Source: a virus. From it: a stretch of DNA of 42,210 nucleotides. The stretch is taken from IMG/VR virus record IMGVR_UViG_3300028608_000001, positions 1 to 42,210 of that record. One strand, written 5' to 3'. The notes beneath the pieces were generated by a model, which was given only the letters and a program-made list of their open reading frames with translations, was not told the origin of the DNA and made no database searches. This document shows, piece by piece, positions 2,904 through 22,436 of this stretch (positions within the stretch are counted from its first letter, which is position 1; the number at the start of each line of letters is the position of its first letter). The translations under genes were made by a program, and so were the position numbers.

Positions 2904-2923
2904 TCCATATAGTGAGCCAATTA
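2904..2923 (-). promoter_or_regulatory. Phage RNA polymerase promoter overlapping the RNAP stop codon
   Basis: The minus strand reads TAATTGGCTCACTATATGGA, where the TAA is the stop codon of the RNA polymerase gene. The promoter lies 18 bases before the next start codon. It shares the AATTGG upstream half with the copy at 2422-2440, while the other four copies have ACTGG. Confidence 0.9.
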
Positions 2924-5320
2924 GCCGCAGAAGAAATACTGCGACTGATGGACCAGATTGATGTCGAGTTCACCCACGGCGGGCAGCTCTGCTTGGATTC
3001 CGTGCAGGTCTTTGAACTCTTGCAACGGGTTATGGTTGGTGTACATGTCAACGAAAGTCTTGCGGATCAGCTCGTGCAGCTTTGCAACGTCAGGAGCAAG
3101 AGCGCCGTAATCGTCGTGAATGAAAGCCAAGTGACCAAGACCTGCTTCCTCCGCCGCGCAAATAAGAGAGTGCATATGTGCAGCATCACAGCTATGCACA
3201 AAGTTAGGAGCAATGCCATTACGGTGGCCACGCTTATCCACCTCGGCGCTCATTGCGCCTACCTTGATCTGAATGCGAACGTCGCCCAGCAGCCGGGTGT
3301 TGATCCGGGTGGACTCTACCTTGTTGTACCGCTGGCGAACAACGAACCCGTTCGGCGCTCTCCACGTTGGCAGAGCCTCGCCGTTGAGTATCAACTCGTC
3401 GCTAGCGTCTTGCAGCCACTTCATCGCCTCTGGAGCCTTGACCACCACGTCAGCGATGGCCTGCCACACCTTGTACGACAGCCAGCTACTGGCCCGGTTG
3501 TACTCATCCTTCATGAATTCAGGCGCTTGGCCCTTCTTCAGGTACTCCTTGAGGATGAACTCTGCACAGCTGAACCGAGTTGACCCGTATGGAAGCGTCA
3601 TCACCGACCGCTTGACCAGACCACGGGATAGGGTGTGCGTCTTCCAGCGTTGTGCTATTGCTTGATCGTCGTCCGGCGCTTGGCTAACCAGTTCAGCGGT
3701 ACGGACAGCCACGAGAGCGTAAATGTCTTGTTTGCGTAGTGACGGAACGAGGTTCGTCGCCACACCGCCAGCCTCATCACGCAGCATTGCTGAGAAATGT
3801 TGAAGCCCATTGCAGCTCCCATCTTGGCCGAGCGGAAGCCTAGTCTGAAATGACTGCGGATATGCACGCCAGTCAGCGTACTCGTAGCACCACGCCAAGA
3901 ATTGGAATGGACAGTCAGCCTCTGCCCATTGTCTATGAGATACAGGGTCTGCCGCGATAGCGAGAAATAGCTCATGGTTTTCGTCCACCCACTGGATGCG
4001 TTCCTGTAGGCTGCCTTTGTCGTTCCCGAACCGGCTGGATGCCGCGAGCTTGAACCAGAACTGAGCGTCCACAGTGTTGATAGGAGCGCCGTCGCAAGCC
4101 ATCAGGAGCGCCTTCTGGAGGTCGCTACCCTGCGGGCTGACGCCGCTGGTCATGGCGTACATCCGACCACGGAAGTCGAACTGGTACACGAAGTAGAGCG
4201 GCTGGCCACGGAACTTGCGGGCAACCCGCAGAGCCTCGTAGTACCGTCCCCACTGCACACCACGGATCTTTGTCTCGGTGTGCCACTCCCTGACGCTGGC
4301 CTTCCACGACTGGAACTCAGCGAGCTGCTCAGGGTTCATAGCCTCCTTGCCCATGTCCTCGTCCAGCCACTCAGGGCGGTCGGGCTTCGGCATTTCCGCC
4401 TGTGATAGCACTTCGCCCACGTCGAAGTATTTGCTGACCAGATCCACCGCGTCGAGGATACGGCTGTTGATGGCCCACTTGTCGCGCTGTAGGCGATTCA
4501 GGGCACGCAAGGAGCTGGGTGGTATATCGGCCTCATCCTCGACATACGGCCTGCCACGGACGCAGCAGGGGCTCTGGCGACGCATGTCATCCGTGTGGAA
4601 CCCGCCGTCGTTTGGGCTCACCCAGTCACGGGGTGGCTCAATGCAAGGCATTACCATCGGCGAACCACCCGCAACAAACTCGGTGATCTGCCCGATCAGG
4701 CCCTTGATGTCGTCGGCCACGTCGATGAGGAGGGTCGGCTTACGGCGCAGGACGACCTGTGACAAGGATACCAGCCCGATGTCACGGGCGAGGTATAGAA
4801 GGATACTGCCTACGGCGGCGCAGTCCTCAGTCGTCCACACAGGCAGCGCTATGCCATTGCTCTCGGCCTCCCGCTTGAACACCACCATCCGGTGCTTTTC
4901 GCTCTTGGTCATGCGGCGTTCAAAGTCGTTGACCAGCGTGTAGTACAGCTTGGGGTTGATCTCCTCAAACTCCGTCAGCAGCTTCTCGCCGTACACGGAG
5001 CGCCCCAGCTTACTGGCCATCGCCGTGAGGCGGTTGTCCTCGTCGGACACGCAGGCCAGCACGGAGCGCACCGTGATGAACGACAGCACCAGCGGGTCGA
5101 AGGTACGCAGGAAGCCTTTGCCTCGCGCCCTTGGGCCGCTGCCATTGTCGGCGCAGTACTCCTTCACCAGCTCAGCAAGAGGCAGGACGAACCGCCGATA
5201 CACCGCTTGGGCATACGGGTTGTTGTGCGCCTGCCCTTTATCCTCGTTGTTCTCGATGTGACGCAGGGCTCGTGCCCGGCCGCCGTCCAGCATTTCTTGC
5301 TCAAGCTCGATCTGGTTCAT
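2921..5320 (-). CDS. Single-subunit DNA-directed RNA polymerase, T7 type
   Basis: 799 aa (T7 enzyme 883). It transcribes phage genes from the six promoters of this genome. The catalytic motifs are all present: motif A DGSCNGLQHFSAMLRDE (Asp near residue 498), motif B KRSVMTLPYGS (near 572) and motif C AFIHDDYG (near 736; T7 has HDS). APNFVHS precedes motif C as in T7. The segment between motifs B and C, which holds the promoter-specificity loop in T7, is shorter here. The protein ends SQYFFCG, where T7 ends in FAFA. The start overlaps the ligase stop (ATGA). Its place after the replication genes is the phiKMV-type arrangement. The T7-like promoters are consistent with an enzyme close in specificity to T7. 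Confidence 0.97.
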   Translation of the reverse strand: MNQIELEQEMLDGGRARALRHIENNEDKGQAHNNPYAQAVYRRFVLPLAELVKEYCADNGSGPRARGKGFLRTFDPLVLSFITVRSVLACVSDEDNRLTAMASKLGRSVYGEKLLTEFEEINPKLYYTLVNDFERRMTKSEKHRMVVFKREAESNGIALPVWTTEDCAAVGSILLYLARDIGLVSLSQVVLRRKPTLLIDVADDIKGLIGQITEFVAGGSPMVMPCIEPPRDWVSPNDGGFHTDDMRRQSPCCVRGRPYVEDEADIPPSSLRALNRLQRDKWAINSRILDAVDLVSKYFDVGEVLSQAEMPKPDRPEWLDEDMGKEAMNPEQLAEFQSWKASVREWHTETKIRGVQWGRYYEALRVARKFRGQPLYFVYQFDFRGRMYAMTSGVSPQGSDLQKALLMACDGAPINTVDAQFWFKLAASSRFGNDKGSLQERIQWVDENHELFLAIAADPVSHRQWAEADCPFQFLAWCYEYADWRAYPQSFQTRLPLGQDGSCNGLQHFSAMLRDEAGGVATNLVPSLRKQDIYALVAVRTAELVSQAPDDDQAIAQRWKTHTLSRGLVKRSVMTLPYGSTRFSCAEFILKEYLKKGQAPEFMKDEYNRASSWLSYKVWQAIADVVVKAPEAMKWLQDASDELILNGEALPTWRAPNGFVVRQRYNKVESTRINTRLLGDVRIQIKVGAMSAEVDKRGHRNGIAPNFVHSCDAAHMHSLICAAEEAGLGHLAFIHDDYGALAPDVAKLHELIRKTFVDMYTNHNPLQEFKDLHGIQAELPAVGELDINLVHQSQYFFCG

Positions 5321-6460: not shown

Positions 6461-6958
6461 TTACTCCTGATAACCTGTGTATTTGCGCCATTGAACTTTC
6501 GCACCGTTAACGAGGAAGCCCCAAGTTCCACGGTACTTGCCGGTAATGAAGATTGTCCAAACACCACCGGGTGACAGATACTTGATTGCGTGATACTCGC
6601 CGAAGTTGATCTTGGCAGTATCGCCGCGAGTGCGCCAGAAGCGTACAACCTTGCCGTTGACCAACCGGTTCTCACGGTAGCCACCCTTCAGGATGATTGT
6701 CCGTGCGTTCCATGGGTGGTCGTGCATGTCCCTCGCATCGTCCGGCAGACAGATGTGATGGATGCGGATGCTTATTGGGAACCTGTTCTTGCTGCCCGAG
6801 GACTCCGCAGGGTATGGATTAAACAGCCACCAACGGCCCATGTACAGTCCACGCGGGTGGTAGATGTGGGTGTAGGGCGTCTTCATTGCTCGACGGATTA
6901 GCCAGTCGGCCACGCACGGCGTCGAAACTAGCCGTGCTATCAGTTTCCAGAACATCAT
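6461..6958 (-). CDS. Cupin-like protein
   Basis: 165 aa. The central part (RIHHICLPDDARDMHDHPWNARTIILKGGYRE, then YHAIKYL and WGFLVNG) reads as a beta-rich cupin-type barrel with a possible metal cluster of His residues (MHDHPW). Cupins of this sort occur in tailed phages without a proven role. The start could be 6958 or 6955, since two ATGs are adjacent and no strong ribosome site separates them. It follows the dNTP-hydrolase-like gene with its ATG two bases past the stop. Substrate unknown. Confidence 0.65.
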   Translation of the reverse strand: MMFWKLIARLVSTPCVADWLIRRAMKTPYTHIYHPRGLYMGRWWLFNPYPAESSGSKNRFPISIRIHHICLPDDARDMHDHPWNARTIILKGGYRENRLVNGKVVRFWRTRGDTAKINFGEYHAIKYLSPGGVWTIFITGKYRGTWGFLVNGAKVQWRKYTGYQE

Positions 6959-17313: not shown

Positions 17314-17817
17314 TTACTCCTTGGTAACGACGATGGTTGCTTTAACTTTATCCAGCACGGCGCACACTAGGTACACTGCACCGGGCTCCTCGGTCGCCCA
17401 CTTCTTGGCGAGGTTGTCCGCTTCGACCTTGTTGATCTTGATGTCGGACTGCTCGCCGCTGTCGTTGGCACTGACCACGATGTAGCCACGCACTGGTGGC
17501 ACACCCACCGTAACAGGTGCAGCCAGCTTAGGATCAGGCAGCTTGGGTCTGTTGTTCTGCTCAACGAACGCAGCCTTGCCAGCTGGCGTCACATCCCACC
17601 GTGCATACTGGCTGTTGTCCTTGTACGTTGTGACCAGCCCAAGGTCACGCAGTTGCAGGCCAATGAATGGGACGTGACTAGTCGTCCACTTCTTACCGCC
17701 ACCGAGGTGCTCGGGGTTGGTGGACAGGAACTGCGCTAGCTTGTCGGTGCGTCGGTTGTCAGTGACATACGAGCACAGCTTGCCGAGCAGGAAGAACTGA
17801 TCGTTAGTTAAACTCAT
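17314..17817 (-). CDS. Hypothetical early protein, 167 aa
   Basis: The N-terminal half (LTNDQFFLLGKLCSYVTDNR to QLRDLGLVTTYKDNSQYARWDVTPAGKAAF) reads like a winged helix with a closing 'TPAGKAAF' strand, as in small transcription regulators. The C-terminal half is a beta-rich domain (GYIVVSANDSGEQSD, AVYLVCAVLDKVKATIVV). GGAG precedes the ATG, and it overlaps the 64-aa gene by 14 bases. DNA binding is possible but unproven. Confidence 0.7.
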   Translation of the reverse strand: MSLTNDQFFLLGKLCSYVTDNRRTDKLAQFLSTNPEHLGGGKKWTTSHVPFIGLQLRDLGLVTTYKDNSQYARWDVTPAGKAAFVEQNNRPKLPDPKLAAPVTVGVPPVRGYIVVSANDSGEQSDIKINKVEADNLAKKWATEEPGAVYLVCAVLDKVKATIVVTKE

Positions 17818-17998
17818 GGTCGAACTCCTCTTGCATGGCCAGCCCTACTGCCAGCATGCCGTCGTGTTGCATGGCTACGTCAACGCCGGTGGCTGGACCG
17901 AAGCCCAGCCCGGCAATCAAGTCAGGCACATCCTCGTGGATGCTGTCAGCGTAGGCCAACGCATCGTCCTCGGATATGAAGTCGTCATCGTGTCTCAT
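17804..17998 (-). CDS. Small acidic early protein, 64 aa
   Basis: Strongly acidic (MRHDDDFISEDDALAYADSIHEDVPDL and QEEFDHEF). The ATG overlaps the kinase-like stop (ATGA). Such small acidic proteins may mimic nucleic acid or inhibit host factors, but nothing specific is visible. Confidence 0.65.
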   Translation of the reverse strand: MRHDDDFISEDDALAYADSIHEDVPDLIAGLGFGPATGVDVAMQHDGMLAVGLAMQEEFDHEFN

Positions 17999-19314
17999 CG
18001 TATGAAGTTCCTGAACTGGTTAACTTGTCTAGCGAAGCGACCACCCCAAGCGGCGCGGTCTCTGTTCTGTTGTTCTACCTGCCACCAGTCCCGCAGGGTG
18101 GCGAGGATCTCAGCCGGGATGCGGATGTTCTGTACCATCAGCCTCTCGTCAGGCAGGGCAGCACCACGAGGCAGGAAGCATGGCTCACGCTCGGGCATAA
18201 TGGCGAACTGCACCACCCCACCGCAGCCATGAATCCTATGGTCTGGCCAGTCCTGTGCTGCCTCACCCAGCTTACGCACTTGCTCCGGCTTCAGGTTGCA
18301 CTCACGCACCCAGTACGCCAGCCGTGCCTCACGCTTATCCTGCCTAGCTCGTGTACGTTGAGCAAACGGGCGCTTGTCATGGTGCCGTGCAACCCGCTGC
18401 TCAAGTGCAGCGAAGTCCATCAGCGCCATGTCTGGATTCCACTGGATCTTACCCTCGTGTTTACCCGGTGGTAGATCAGGGATGCGGATCTTAGGGATGT
18501 TAAACATCTGTGGGTTACCAAACCCGTGACGTTGACCACGGTTGATTGGCACGGCCATCGCACGCAGCATTGCGTCGTCAGCGTTGTCGCACAGGTTGGC
18601 GAACTCACCAAGGAACTCAGGTACTGGAGGTCTTACAATAGGGAACTCCAGTTTCATCTGGTGGCCCCAGCTCTTGACCACTGCATCACGGCTGTACACC
18701 TTGGCAATCAGGTGGTTGTTGTTGCCGCAGTGGATAGGGTCGGTCATGATGAGGATGTCAAGCTCGTCGTCGATCATGAAGTTCCCGTCGTGCAGATCCC
18801 ACTGCACCAGATCACCGAAGAACTCACCGGCCTTGATGCCTGCCAGTGTGACAGGTGCATCGTTCAGCGGGCGGTCGTGGCAGTCCTGCACTCTGCCGTA
18901 GCAGGCAGCCTTGGCAGAAAAGAAGTCACGGTCGAAGCGAGTAGCAGCTGGGTCTGCATTGCAGCGGTACTCAGCGCACTCATACTCTAGGTACTGCGGC
19001 AGCATCACCATGAACACGTCATGCTGCGGGCTGAAGGTTGCGAACTTGAACTCAGGCACACCGGGCATAGGGTTAGCCATTGCCCAGTGTACATACGCAG
19101 GGTACGAGTCGCCGTCAACACGACCGCACACCTTGATGCACCACCCCTTCACATCCTTGTGTGACCAAGCGCTGCCATAGTTCCCGCTACCAAGGCAGTG
19201 GAAACCAGCTTGCTGCAACTTGCCCTTGGTTTCCTGATAGTCATCGGACATGCACAGGAAAGCCTTCTCCATCAGCTCAAGGAGCTGCACCTTGGTGTAG
19301 TTGTTGCGACTCAT
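17995..19314 (-). CDS. Protein-kinase-like early protein
   Basis: 439 aa from ATG 19314 (MSRNNYTKVQL), with GAGGG upstream. The N-terminal half carries kinase marks in order: a glycine loop LGSGNYGSAW (41-50), Lys 61 in WCIKVCG, a catalytic loop WDLHDGN with Asp 173 and Asn 178 at the normal spacing of five, and a metal Asp 192 in MTDP, where DFG would stand. About 245 residues follow with no known domain; they are rich in Arg, Trp and His. T7 gp0.7 has a similar plan, an early kinase plus a C-terminal host-transcription shut-off part. I infer an analogous role, but direct homology is not shown. Confidence 0.75.
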   Translation of the reverse strand: MSRNNYTKVQLLELMEKAFLCMSDDYQETKGKLQQAGFHCLGSGNYGSAWSHKDVKGWCIKVCGRVDGDSYPAYVHWAMANPMPGVPEFKFATFSPQHDVFMVMLPQYLEYECAEYRCNADPAATRFDRDFFSAKAACYGRVQDCHDRPLNDAPVTLAGIKAGEFFGDLVQWDLHDGNFMIDDELDILIMTDPIHCGNNNHLIAKVYSRDAVVKSWGHQMKLEFPIVRPPVPEFLGEFANLCDNADDAMLRAMAVPINRGQRHGFGNPQMFNIPKIRIPDLPPGKHEGKIQWNPDMALMDFAALEQRVARHHDKRPFAQRTRARQDKREARLAYWVRECNLKPEQVRKLGEAAQDWPDHRIHGCGGVVQFAIMPEREPCFLPRGAALPDERLMVQNIRIPAEILATLRDWWQVEQQNRDRAAWGGRFARQVNQFRNFIR

Positions 19315-19402: not shown

Positions 19403-19477
19403 TTACTCACGGCTGAGCCACCAGATGGCAGCCAACCACGCCAGATTGTACAGCAGGATACTACTTGCGAGCCACAT
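19403..19477 (-). CDS. Possible 24-aa membrane micropeptide
   Basis: The ATG lies inside the end of the 134-aa gene. The predicted peptide is almost entirely one hydrophobic segment with four Trp (MWLASSILLYNLAW, then LAAIWWLSRE). The ribosome site is weak (CAGGCC). It may be chance, but the composition is that of a single-span membrane peptide. Confidence 0.25.
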   Translation of the reverse strand: MWLASSILLYNLAWLAAIWWLSRE

Positions 19478-19865
19478 AGTACTGGCCTGCAAAGCGAGTC
19501 CAGCTCTTGGCCTTCTCAGCTTGCTGCTGAGTTGACGACTTGAACTCACCAACGTAGGTGGCCATTACTTCAGGCGCACTGACGTTGTAACCGGCGTAGT
19601 TGTTCTCGCCGTAGGCCAGCCACGCATTGTACTGGTTGTCCAGATACATTACGCAGGCTTGGTTGCACTCCTTGAGCAAGTCCTTCACTTGCTGTGTGAA
19701 CTGCTCGATGGGCAAGGCGTAGCACTGCTCCTGCTTGCCCTCATAACAGCCAGTGCCACCTTCAAACGAGGTGACACCAGCACCCTTCAGCGCCTCGATG
19801 TCGGCCGCTGCGTTGGCACGGTTCAGTGCCACCAGTACTACAGGTTGTTTGCCATTGACACGCAT
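19461..19865 (-). CDS. Hypothetical early protein, 134 aa
   Basis: MRVNGKQPVVLVALNRANA and then a mixed region with five Cys and many Tyr and Gln, ending RFAGQYYVARK. CGGAG stands eight bases before the ATG. The repeated Cys (GCYEGKQEQCYA, ECNQAC) could bind metal or form disulfides, but there is no signal peptide. Function not recognised. Confidence 0.75.
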   Translation of the reverse strand: MRVNGKQPVVLVALNRANAAADIEALKGAGVTSFEGGTGCYEGKQEQCYALPIEQFTQQVKDLLKECNQACVMYLDNQYNAWLAYGENNYAGYNVSAPEVMATYVGEFKSSTQQQAEKAKSWTRFAGQYYVARK

Positions 19866-22372: not shown

Positions 22373-22436
22373 GTTGCTGTGTTACGGTTCGCATTCTACA
22401 GAGTTGCTGTGTAGCTGTCAAGCGTTTGTTGCTGTG
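22373..22436 (-). repeat. Three CACAGCAAC repeats around the sigma70 promoter
   Basis: The 9-mer occurs at 22428-22436, 22403-22411 and 22373-22381 (minus-strand sense). The copies lie upstream of the -35, inside the spacer and downstream of the -10, at spacings of 25 and 30 bases. This is how operator sites for a repressor or activator are often placed. Confidence 0.5.
22393..22421 (-). promoter_or_regulatory. Strong host sigma70 promoter for the early genes
   Basis: The minus strand has TTGACA (22421-22416), exactly 17 bases, then TAGAAT (22398-22393). That is a perfect -35, an optimal spacer and five of six -10 bases. It faces the early genes about 360 bases downstream. A second TTGACA on the same strand near 22568-22563 has only a weak -10 at the right distance. 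Confidence 0.8.

Follow-up and report, generated by a model that had tools for sequence, protein, structure and literature searches.

The window analysed here is the whole 42,210-base stretch of IMG/VR record IMGVR_UViG_3300028608_000001 (GC 57%). An early-region gene in it encodes a kinase-like protein with a large C-terminal half, which raises the question of how this protein relates to gp0.7 of phage T7 and on what it would act in the host. T7 gp0.7 is reported to phosphorylate the host RNA polymerase and to raise termination (PMC5569994). The original prediction treated the window protein as a counterpart of gp0.7, either independently evolved or distantly related, that might reprogram host RNA polymerase or other targets.

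The open reading frame on the minus strand (17995-19314) encodes 439 amino acids from its ATG with no internal stop. A longer frame from a GTG at 19410 has no clear ribosome site; the ATG at 19314 is favoured by a GAGG just upstream and by the close relatives, all of which start at the ATG position. The features of the locus, all on the minus strand, are:

17995-19314, minus strand: predicted gp0.7-family protein kinase gene, 439 aa (ATG at 19314, TGA stop at 17995-17997)
18715-19314, minus strand: predicted kinase domain, residues 1-200 (PHROG 15752 match over residues 24-201; AlphaFold kinase fold)
19165-19191, minus strand: Gly-rich loop GSGNYGSAW, residues 42-50 (GSGNYGS, 42-48), from the sequence and the alignment of relatives
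19132-19134, minus strand: putative ATP-binding Lys61 (CIK61V), invariant in 31 relatives
18781-18798, minus strand: putative catalytic loop D173-L-H-D-G-N178 (WD173LHDGN178FM), with D173, H175 and N178 invariant
18739-18741, minus strand: putative metal-binding Asp192 (TD192P, replacing DFG), invariant in 31 relatives
18370-18717, minus strand: middle segment, residues 200-315, with homology to relatives and, weakly, to the C-terminal region of T7 gp0.7
18385-18417, minus strand: motif DFAALEQRVAR, residues 300-310, also seen in T7-type shut-off domains (DFKALEERIAL in T7)
17998-18369, minus strand: C-terminal extension, residues 316-439, with no T7 counterpart (shuffle tests against L016 and Laguja-2)
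17804-17998, minus strand: acidic 64-aa open reading frame, a probable coupled partner whose start overlaps the kinase stop and which follows the kinase in relatives

The Gly-rich loop, Lys61, Asp173/Asn178 and Asp192 are all present as first described. An alignment of 31 relatives shows that conservation includes these catalytic positions, with G44, K61, D69, P87, D173, H175, N178, M180, D192 and P193 invariant. In the AlphaFold model the N-lobe and catalytic core have pLDDT values of mostly 70-90, within a whole-model confidence that is low (57). The top-ranked Foldseek matches in BFVD were phage protein kinases (E = 8.5e-13), kinases in the PDB were matched too, and VIA-align listed protein kinases with Z values up to 8.5 over residues 6-233, a modest score from which no family within the kinases is to be read. 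The predicted structure thus supports a protein-kinase fold for this domain, and the kinase-like reading is backed by sequence family and invariant catalytic residues as well. That the gene encodes instead a small-molecule phosphotransferase resembling aminoglycoside kinases is very improbable: the lowest Foldseek E-values in the PDB do belong to aminoglycoside phosphotransferases, but those alignments have an rmsd of ~20 Å and a TM-score of ~0.2, while the VIA-align rows are protein kinases and the sequence families matched are those of phage protein kinases.

PHROG 15752 ('protein kinase; inhibitor of host transcription'; the T7 kinase) matches residues 24-201 with E = 1.3e-15, and two further PHROG families of phage kinases match at 1.9e-8 and 2.7e-6. 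A tblastn search matched 225 phage records, the best annotated as protein kinase; 22 Pseudomonas putida phages head the matches (30-37% identity, E down to 1e-42), with T7-like phages of Enterobacteriaceae and Vibrio below them. Pfam and PADLOC searches with the whole protein or its C-terminal half yielded nothing meaningful, and the empty Pfam result indicates a protein too divergent for general kinase models. The nearest kinase is encoded on IMG/VR contig IMGVR_UViG_3300017560_000006 (L016); it has the same neighbours and 37% identity in the best segment, but comprises 411 aa and differs in its middle segment. IMG/VR scans with further queries returned only L016 again, or nothing. In the kinase-domain tree the window protein pairs with that of L016 (99/91); the Laguja group joins next, the Enterobacteriaceae clade stands separately, and long branches leave the deeper placement unsure.

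These data support the view that the protein is a distant homologue of T7 gp0.7. Of the two origins first proposed, distant relationship is therefore upheld by the PHROG match, the tblastn results and the tree, and independent evolution is contradicted by the same evidence. An identity of only 21% to T7 gp0.7 would be compatible with convergence, but the sequence statistics already speak against it (PHROG 15752), as do invariant residues outside the universal kinase set that are common to the family (D69, P87, M180 and P193), a C-terminal motif in common with T7-type proteins and the position of the kinase among other Autographiviridae kinases in the tree; convergence is accordingly rated as exceedingly improbable. 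In 22 P. putida Autographiviridae phages the nearest relatives already bear the annotation 'protein kinase', and the window gene mainly adds another case of a known enzyme type.

The genomic setting differs from that of T7. All tested genes that matched a family are encoded on the minus strand, in the order of P. putida phage Laguja-2, and the window RNA polymerase shares 77% identity with its counterparts in a group of P. putida Autographiviridae phages, which makes a Pseudomonas host likely; the phage would be a Pseudomonas-type Autographivirid with a phiKMV-like gene order. The RNA polymerase gene (2921-5320) starts ~12.7 kb downstream of the kinase stop, after the replication genes, the same late position as in phiKMV. 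In T7, by contrast, gp0.7 lies directly upstream of the RNA polymerase gene, with a gap of ~70 bases; the window kinase gene does not adjoin its polymerase gene and is followed instead by the overlapping acidic gene. In phiKMV-type phages the earlier stages are served by the host polymerase (PMC7552054). Within a 1-kb stretch upstream of the early genes lies a promoter-like sequence, TTGACA-17-TAGAAT (11/12; 22393-22421, minus strand); the count of promoter-like sites in this upstream region is not above chance.

Full-length homologues of the kinase occur in P. putida phages Laguja-2, BotAed, Hammaste-2 and 19 others (e.g. PP496450.1), with the same flanking genes, genome order and acidic downstream gene. 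Their kinases are 30-37% identical to the window protein, which is ~30 aa longer, though the RNA polymerases are 77% identical. The kinase is among the genes least conserved relative to Laguja-2 (30.5%, against 77% for RNA polymerase and 83% for capsid). dN/dS values of 0.12 (kinase) and 0.26 (C-terminal half) among P. putida relatives indicate purifying selection on both; the C-terminal half is conserved across this lineage. ErraM and Vanda, close relatives of Laguja-2, have no kinase, from which it follows that the gene is dispensable. In ErraM (L077, ~3917-4028) the whole segment carrying the kinase and acidic genes is deleted, and in Vanda (L078, 3981-4119) ~33 kinase codons and the final 16 of the acidic gene remain, everything between them being lost. 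Such fast divergence together with dispensability fits the pattern of an accessory arms-race protein.

The ~245 residues that follow the kinase part had been described as devoid of a known domain, and no Pfam domain was found there at or near the cut-off. When modelled alone from a two-sequence alignment, the C-terminal half gave a low-confidence model (pLDDT 45) of helices and three strands, which had no PDB match with E under 0.7. The middle segment (residues 200-315) is nevertheless related to known proteins: against Laguja-2 its alignment score of 94 was reached in 0/500 shuffles, and against T7 the score was reached by 1/500. For the last 124 residues (316-439), 2/500 shuffles reached the score against L016, and the comparison with Laguja-2 was marginal (39/500). 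Stand-alone C-terminal halves were sought in phages, and the matches were only the kinases of relatives, at E 0.08-0.7, and noise. Two versions of residues ~240-285 exist among the P. putida phages (L002-L009), NIPKARD...DFAILEQRM or GFGNPAKNF...WNALEMRM, and features of each version seem to be combined in the window protein, a pattern that would arise had the relatives lost different portions.

A profile drawn from a set of kinases that excludes the Pseudomonas group matches MDFAALEQRVAR at residues 299-310 with 24.5 bits (0/3000 shuffles, a somewhat optimistic count as the motif was spotted before it was tested). Its core, DFaaLEqRvA, corresponds to residues 300-309, and weaker matches occur at the equivalent place in Laguja-2 (18.0), L016 (16.0) and Kurepalu-1 (12.4). 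Counted on the sequences, the motif lies ~107 residues after TDP in both the window protein and T7 gp0.7; in the form DFxALExR it is common to the two, at the same relative place. A resemblance of the motif to motif A of family A DNA polymerases (D-x-S-x-x-E), of which it might have been a relic, was rejected: with profiles including the window, Laguja-2 and T7 polymerases, the site did not align and the scores fell within those of column shuffles.

Like that of T7 gp0.7, the C-terminal half is basic (pI 9.9), but it comprises ~237 aa rather than 136. Charge scoring detected no Lys/Arg-rich tract of the T7 shut-off domain: the best 40-residue net charge is +8, against +15 in T7 and +12 to +18 in the remaining Enterobacteriaceae-phage proteins that were scored, and the K+R fraction is 0.16 vs 0.20-0.24. 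The terminal ID..L...LMG of the T7-type domain is likewise absent, the window protein ending in RQVNQFRNFIR. Of the proposed kinase plus shut-off layout, then, one short common motif holds, while the basic tract and the terminal LMG do not. Taken together, the alignments suggest that the C-terminal half is probably a remodelled descendant of the T7-type C-terminal region with a lineage-specific extension. As a shut-off domain that silences host transcription it is putative at most.

That it is a true T7-type kinase and shut-off protein, whose C-terminal half silences the host RNA polymerase late enough to spare the early phage genes, is conceivable but rather unlikely. The motif match, its spacing from TDP and the basic pI are all as such a protein would have them, but hhalign comparison of the C-terminal halves with those of T7-type proteins is not significant by itself (E ~0.03-0.5 over 10-16 columns), neither the Lys/Arg-rich tract nor the LMG tail is present, and the RNA polymerase gene lies far downstream. 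Because the phage RNA polymerase and all replication genes are downstream and would first be transcribed by the host enzyme, an early and total shut-off of that enzyme would be self-defeating. For the same dependence of downstream genes on the host enzyme, reprogramming of host RNA polymerase, one of the activities originally envisaged, is less likely here than in T7.

An alternative role is offered by JSS1_004 of phage JSS1, a cytotoxic T7-like homologue that phosphorylates DndFGH and thereby blocks this defence, for which both of its halves are required (PMC12345140). Spontaneous detoxifying mutations arose at G95, G200, N201 and M203, and G200W, N201T and M203T relieve the toxicity (PMC12345140). 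By position, G200, N201 and M203 match G177, N178 and M180 of the window protein. The combination of kinase and C-terminal half, anti-defence action and toxicity shown for JSS1_004 is proposed for the window protein; the former is of the close T7 type and was studied by experiment. T7-type kinases have reportedly been found of late to disarm several defence systems.

The reading we prefer, and regard as fairly probable, is that of an early-region gp0.7-family kinase that phosphorylates host proteins, mainly those of defence, and uses its basic C-terminal half as an arm for targeting. T7 gp0.7, also encoded in the early region, has a homologous kinase domain with all the catalytic residues; Ser/Thr(/Tyr) kinase activity on host proteins is presumed by analogy, and at 20-35% identity it is uncertain how far function can be transferred. 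The kinase would be made soon after DNA entry and may phosphorylate many host proteins promiscuously, above all anti-phage defence proteins. The C-terminal half may direct it to nucleic acid or selected targets, although nucleic-acid binding is suggested by net charge alone and the basic tract is weaker than that of T7. Complete early shut-off of the host RNA polymerase would not be its main job, as the host enzyme must still read the next 13-15 kb, where the replication and RNA polymerase genes lie. More tentatively, the co-translated acidic protein might hold a toxic, basic kinase in check or tune it.

This neighbour (17804-17998, minus strand) has a calculated pI of 4.05 and a net charge of -15, and it had no PHROG match. 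L016, the Laguja group, Kurepalu-1 and SVOphi44 have orthologues of like charge in the corresponding place after the kinase; at 44-55% identity to them the acidic protein is better conserved than the kinase. Both genes were lost together in the two separate deletions of ErraM and Vanda. From linkage alone, we would guess at a coupled inhibitor or helper of the kinase. A pair of toxin-antidote style, in which the acidic protein would be a specific inhibitor of the kinase, seems unlikely, even though the start and stop overlap or abut in four sub-lineages, the acidic protein retains ~50% identity against 30% for the kinase, and the Vanda deletion spans from inside one gene to inside the other with both absent in ErraM; the argument is one of linkage, the two deletions could be chance, and the acidic protein might act as a DNA mimic or as an anti-defence protein with no connection to the kinase. 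Similarly speculative is a two-gene module directed at host defences and not at transcription shut-off, in which a fast-evolving kinase with a C-terminal half remodelled into a new targeting domain would be neutralised or steered by the acidic protein.

The enzyme belongs to a known takeover and anti-defence family; what merits work at the bench is its remodelled C-terminal half, together with the acidic partner. A very divergent kinase, encoded by a phage that early shut-off of the host polymerase should harm, offers a chance to separate an anti-defence role from shut-off, and ErraM and Vanda, sister phages that lack the kinase and are recorded from the same strains of P. putida, provide a ready comparison.

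Several further observations were made. The gene directly upstream of the kinase in relatives (19461-19865, minus strand, 134 aa) is kept in the kinase-less ErraM and Vanda, and its product carries a weak PHROG label, 'SAM-dependent methyltransferase' (E = 4.6e-9). The protein encoded at 6461-6958 (minus strand) matches PHROG 4786, 'cysteine dioxygenase' (E = 4.8e-41), and no Laguja-2 counterpart of it was found. In Pseudomonas phage LNA8 (L080, an unverified record) the kinase frame is broken after ~230 residues. Very divergent kinase-like reading frames with a D-x-H-x-x-N signature occur on contigs of 44, 90 and 353 kb (L042, L064 and L069).
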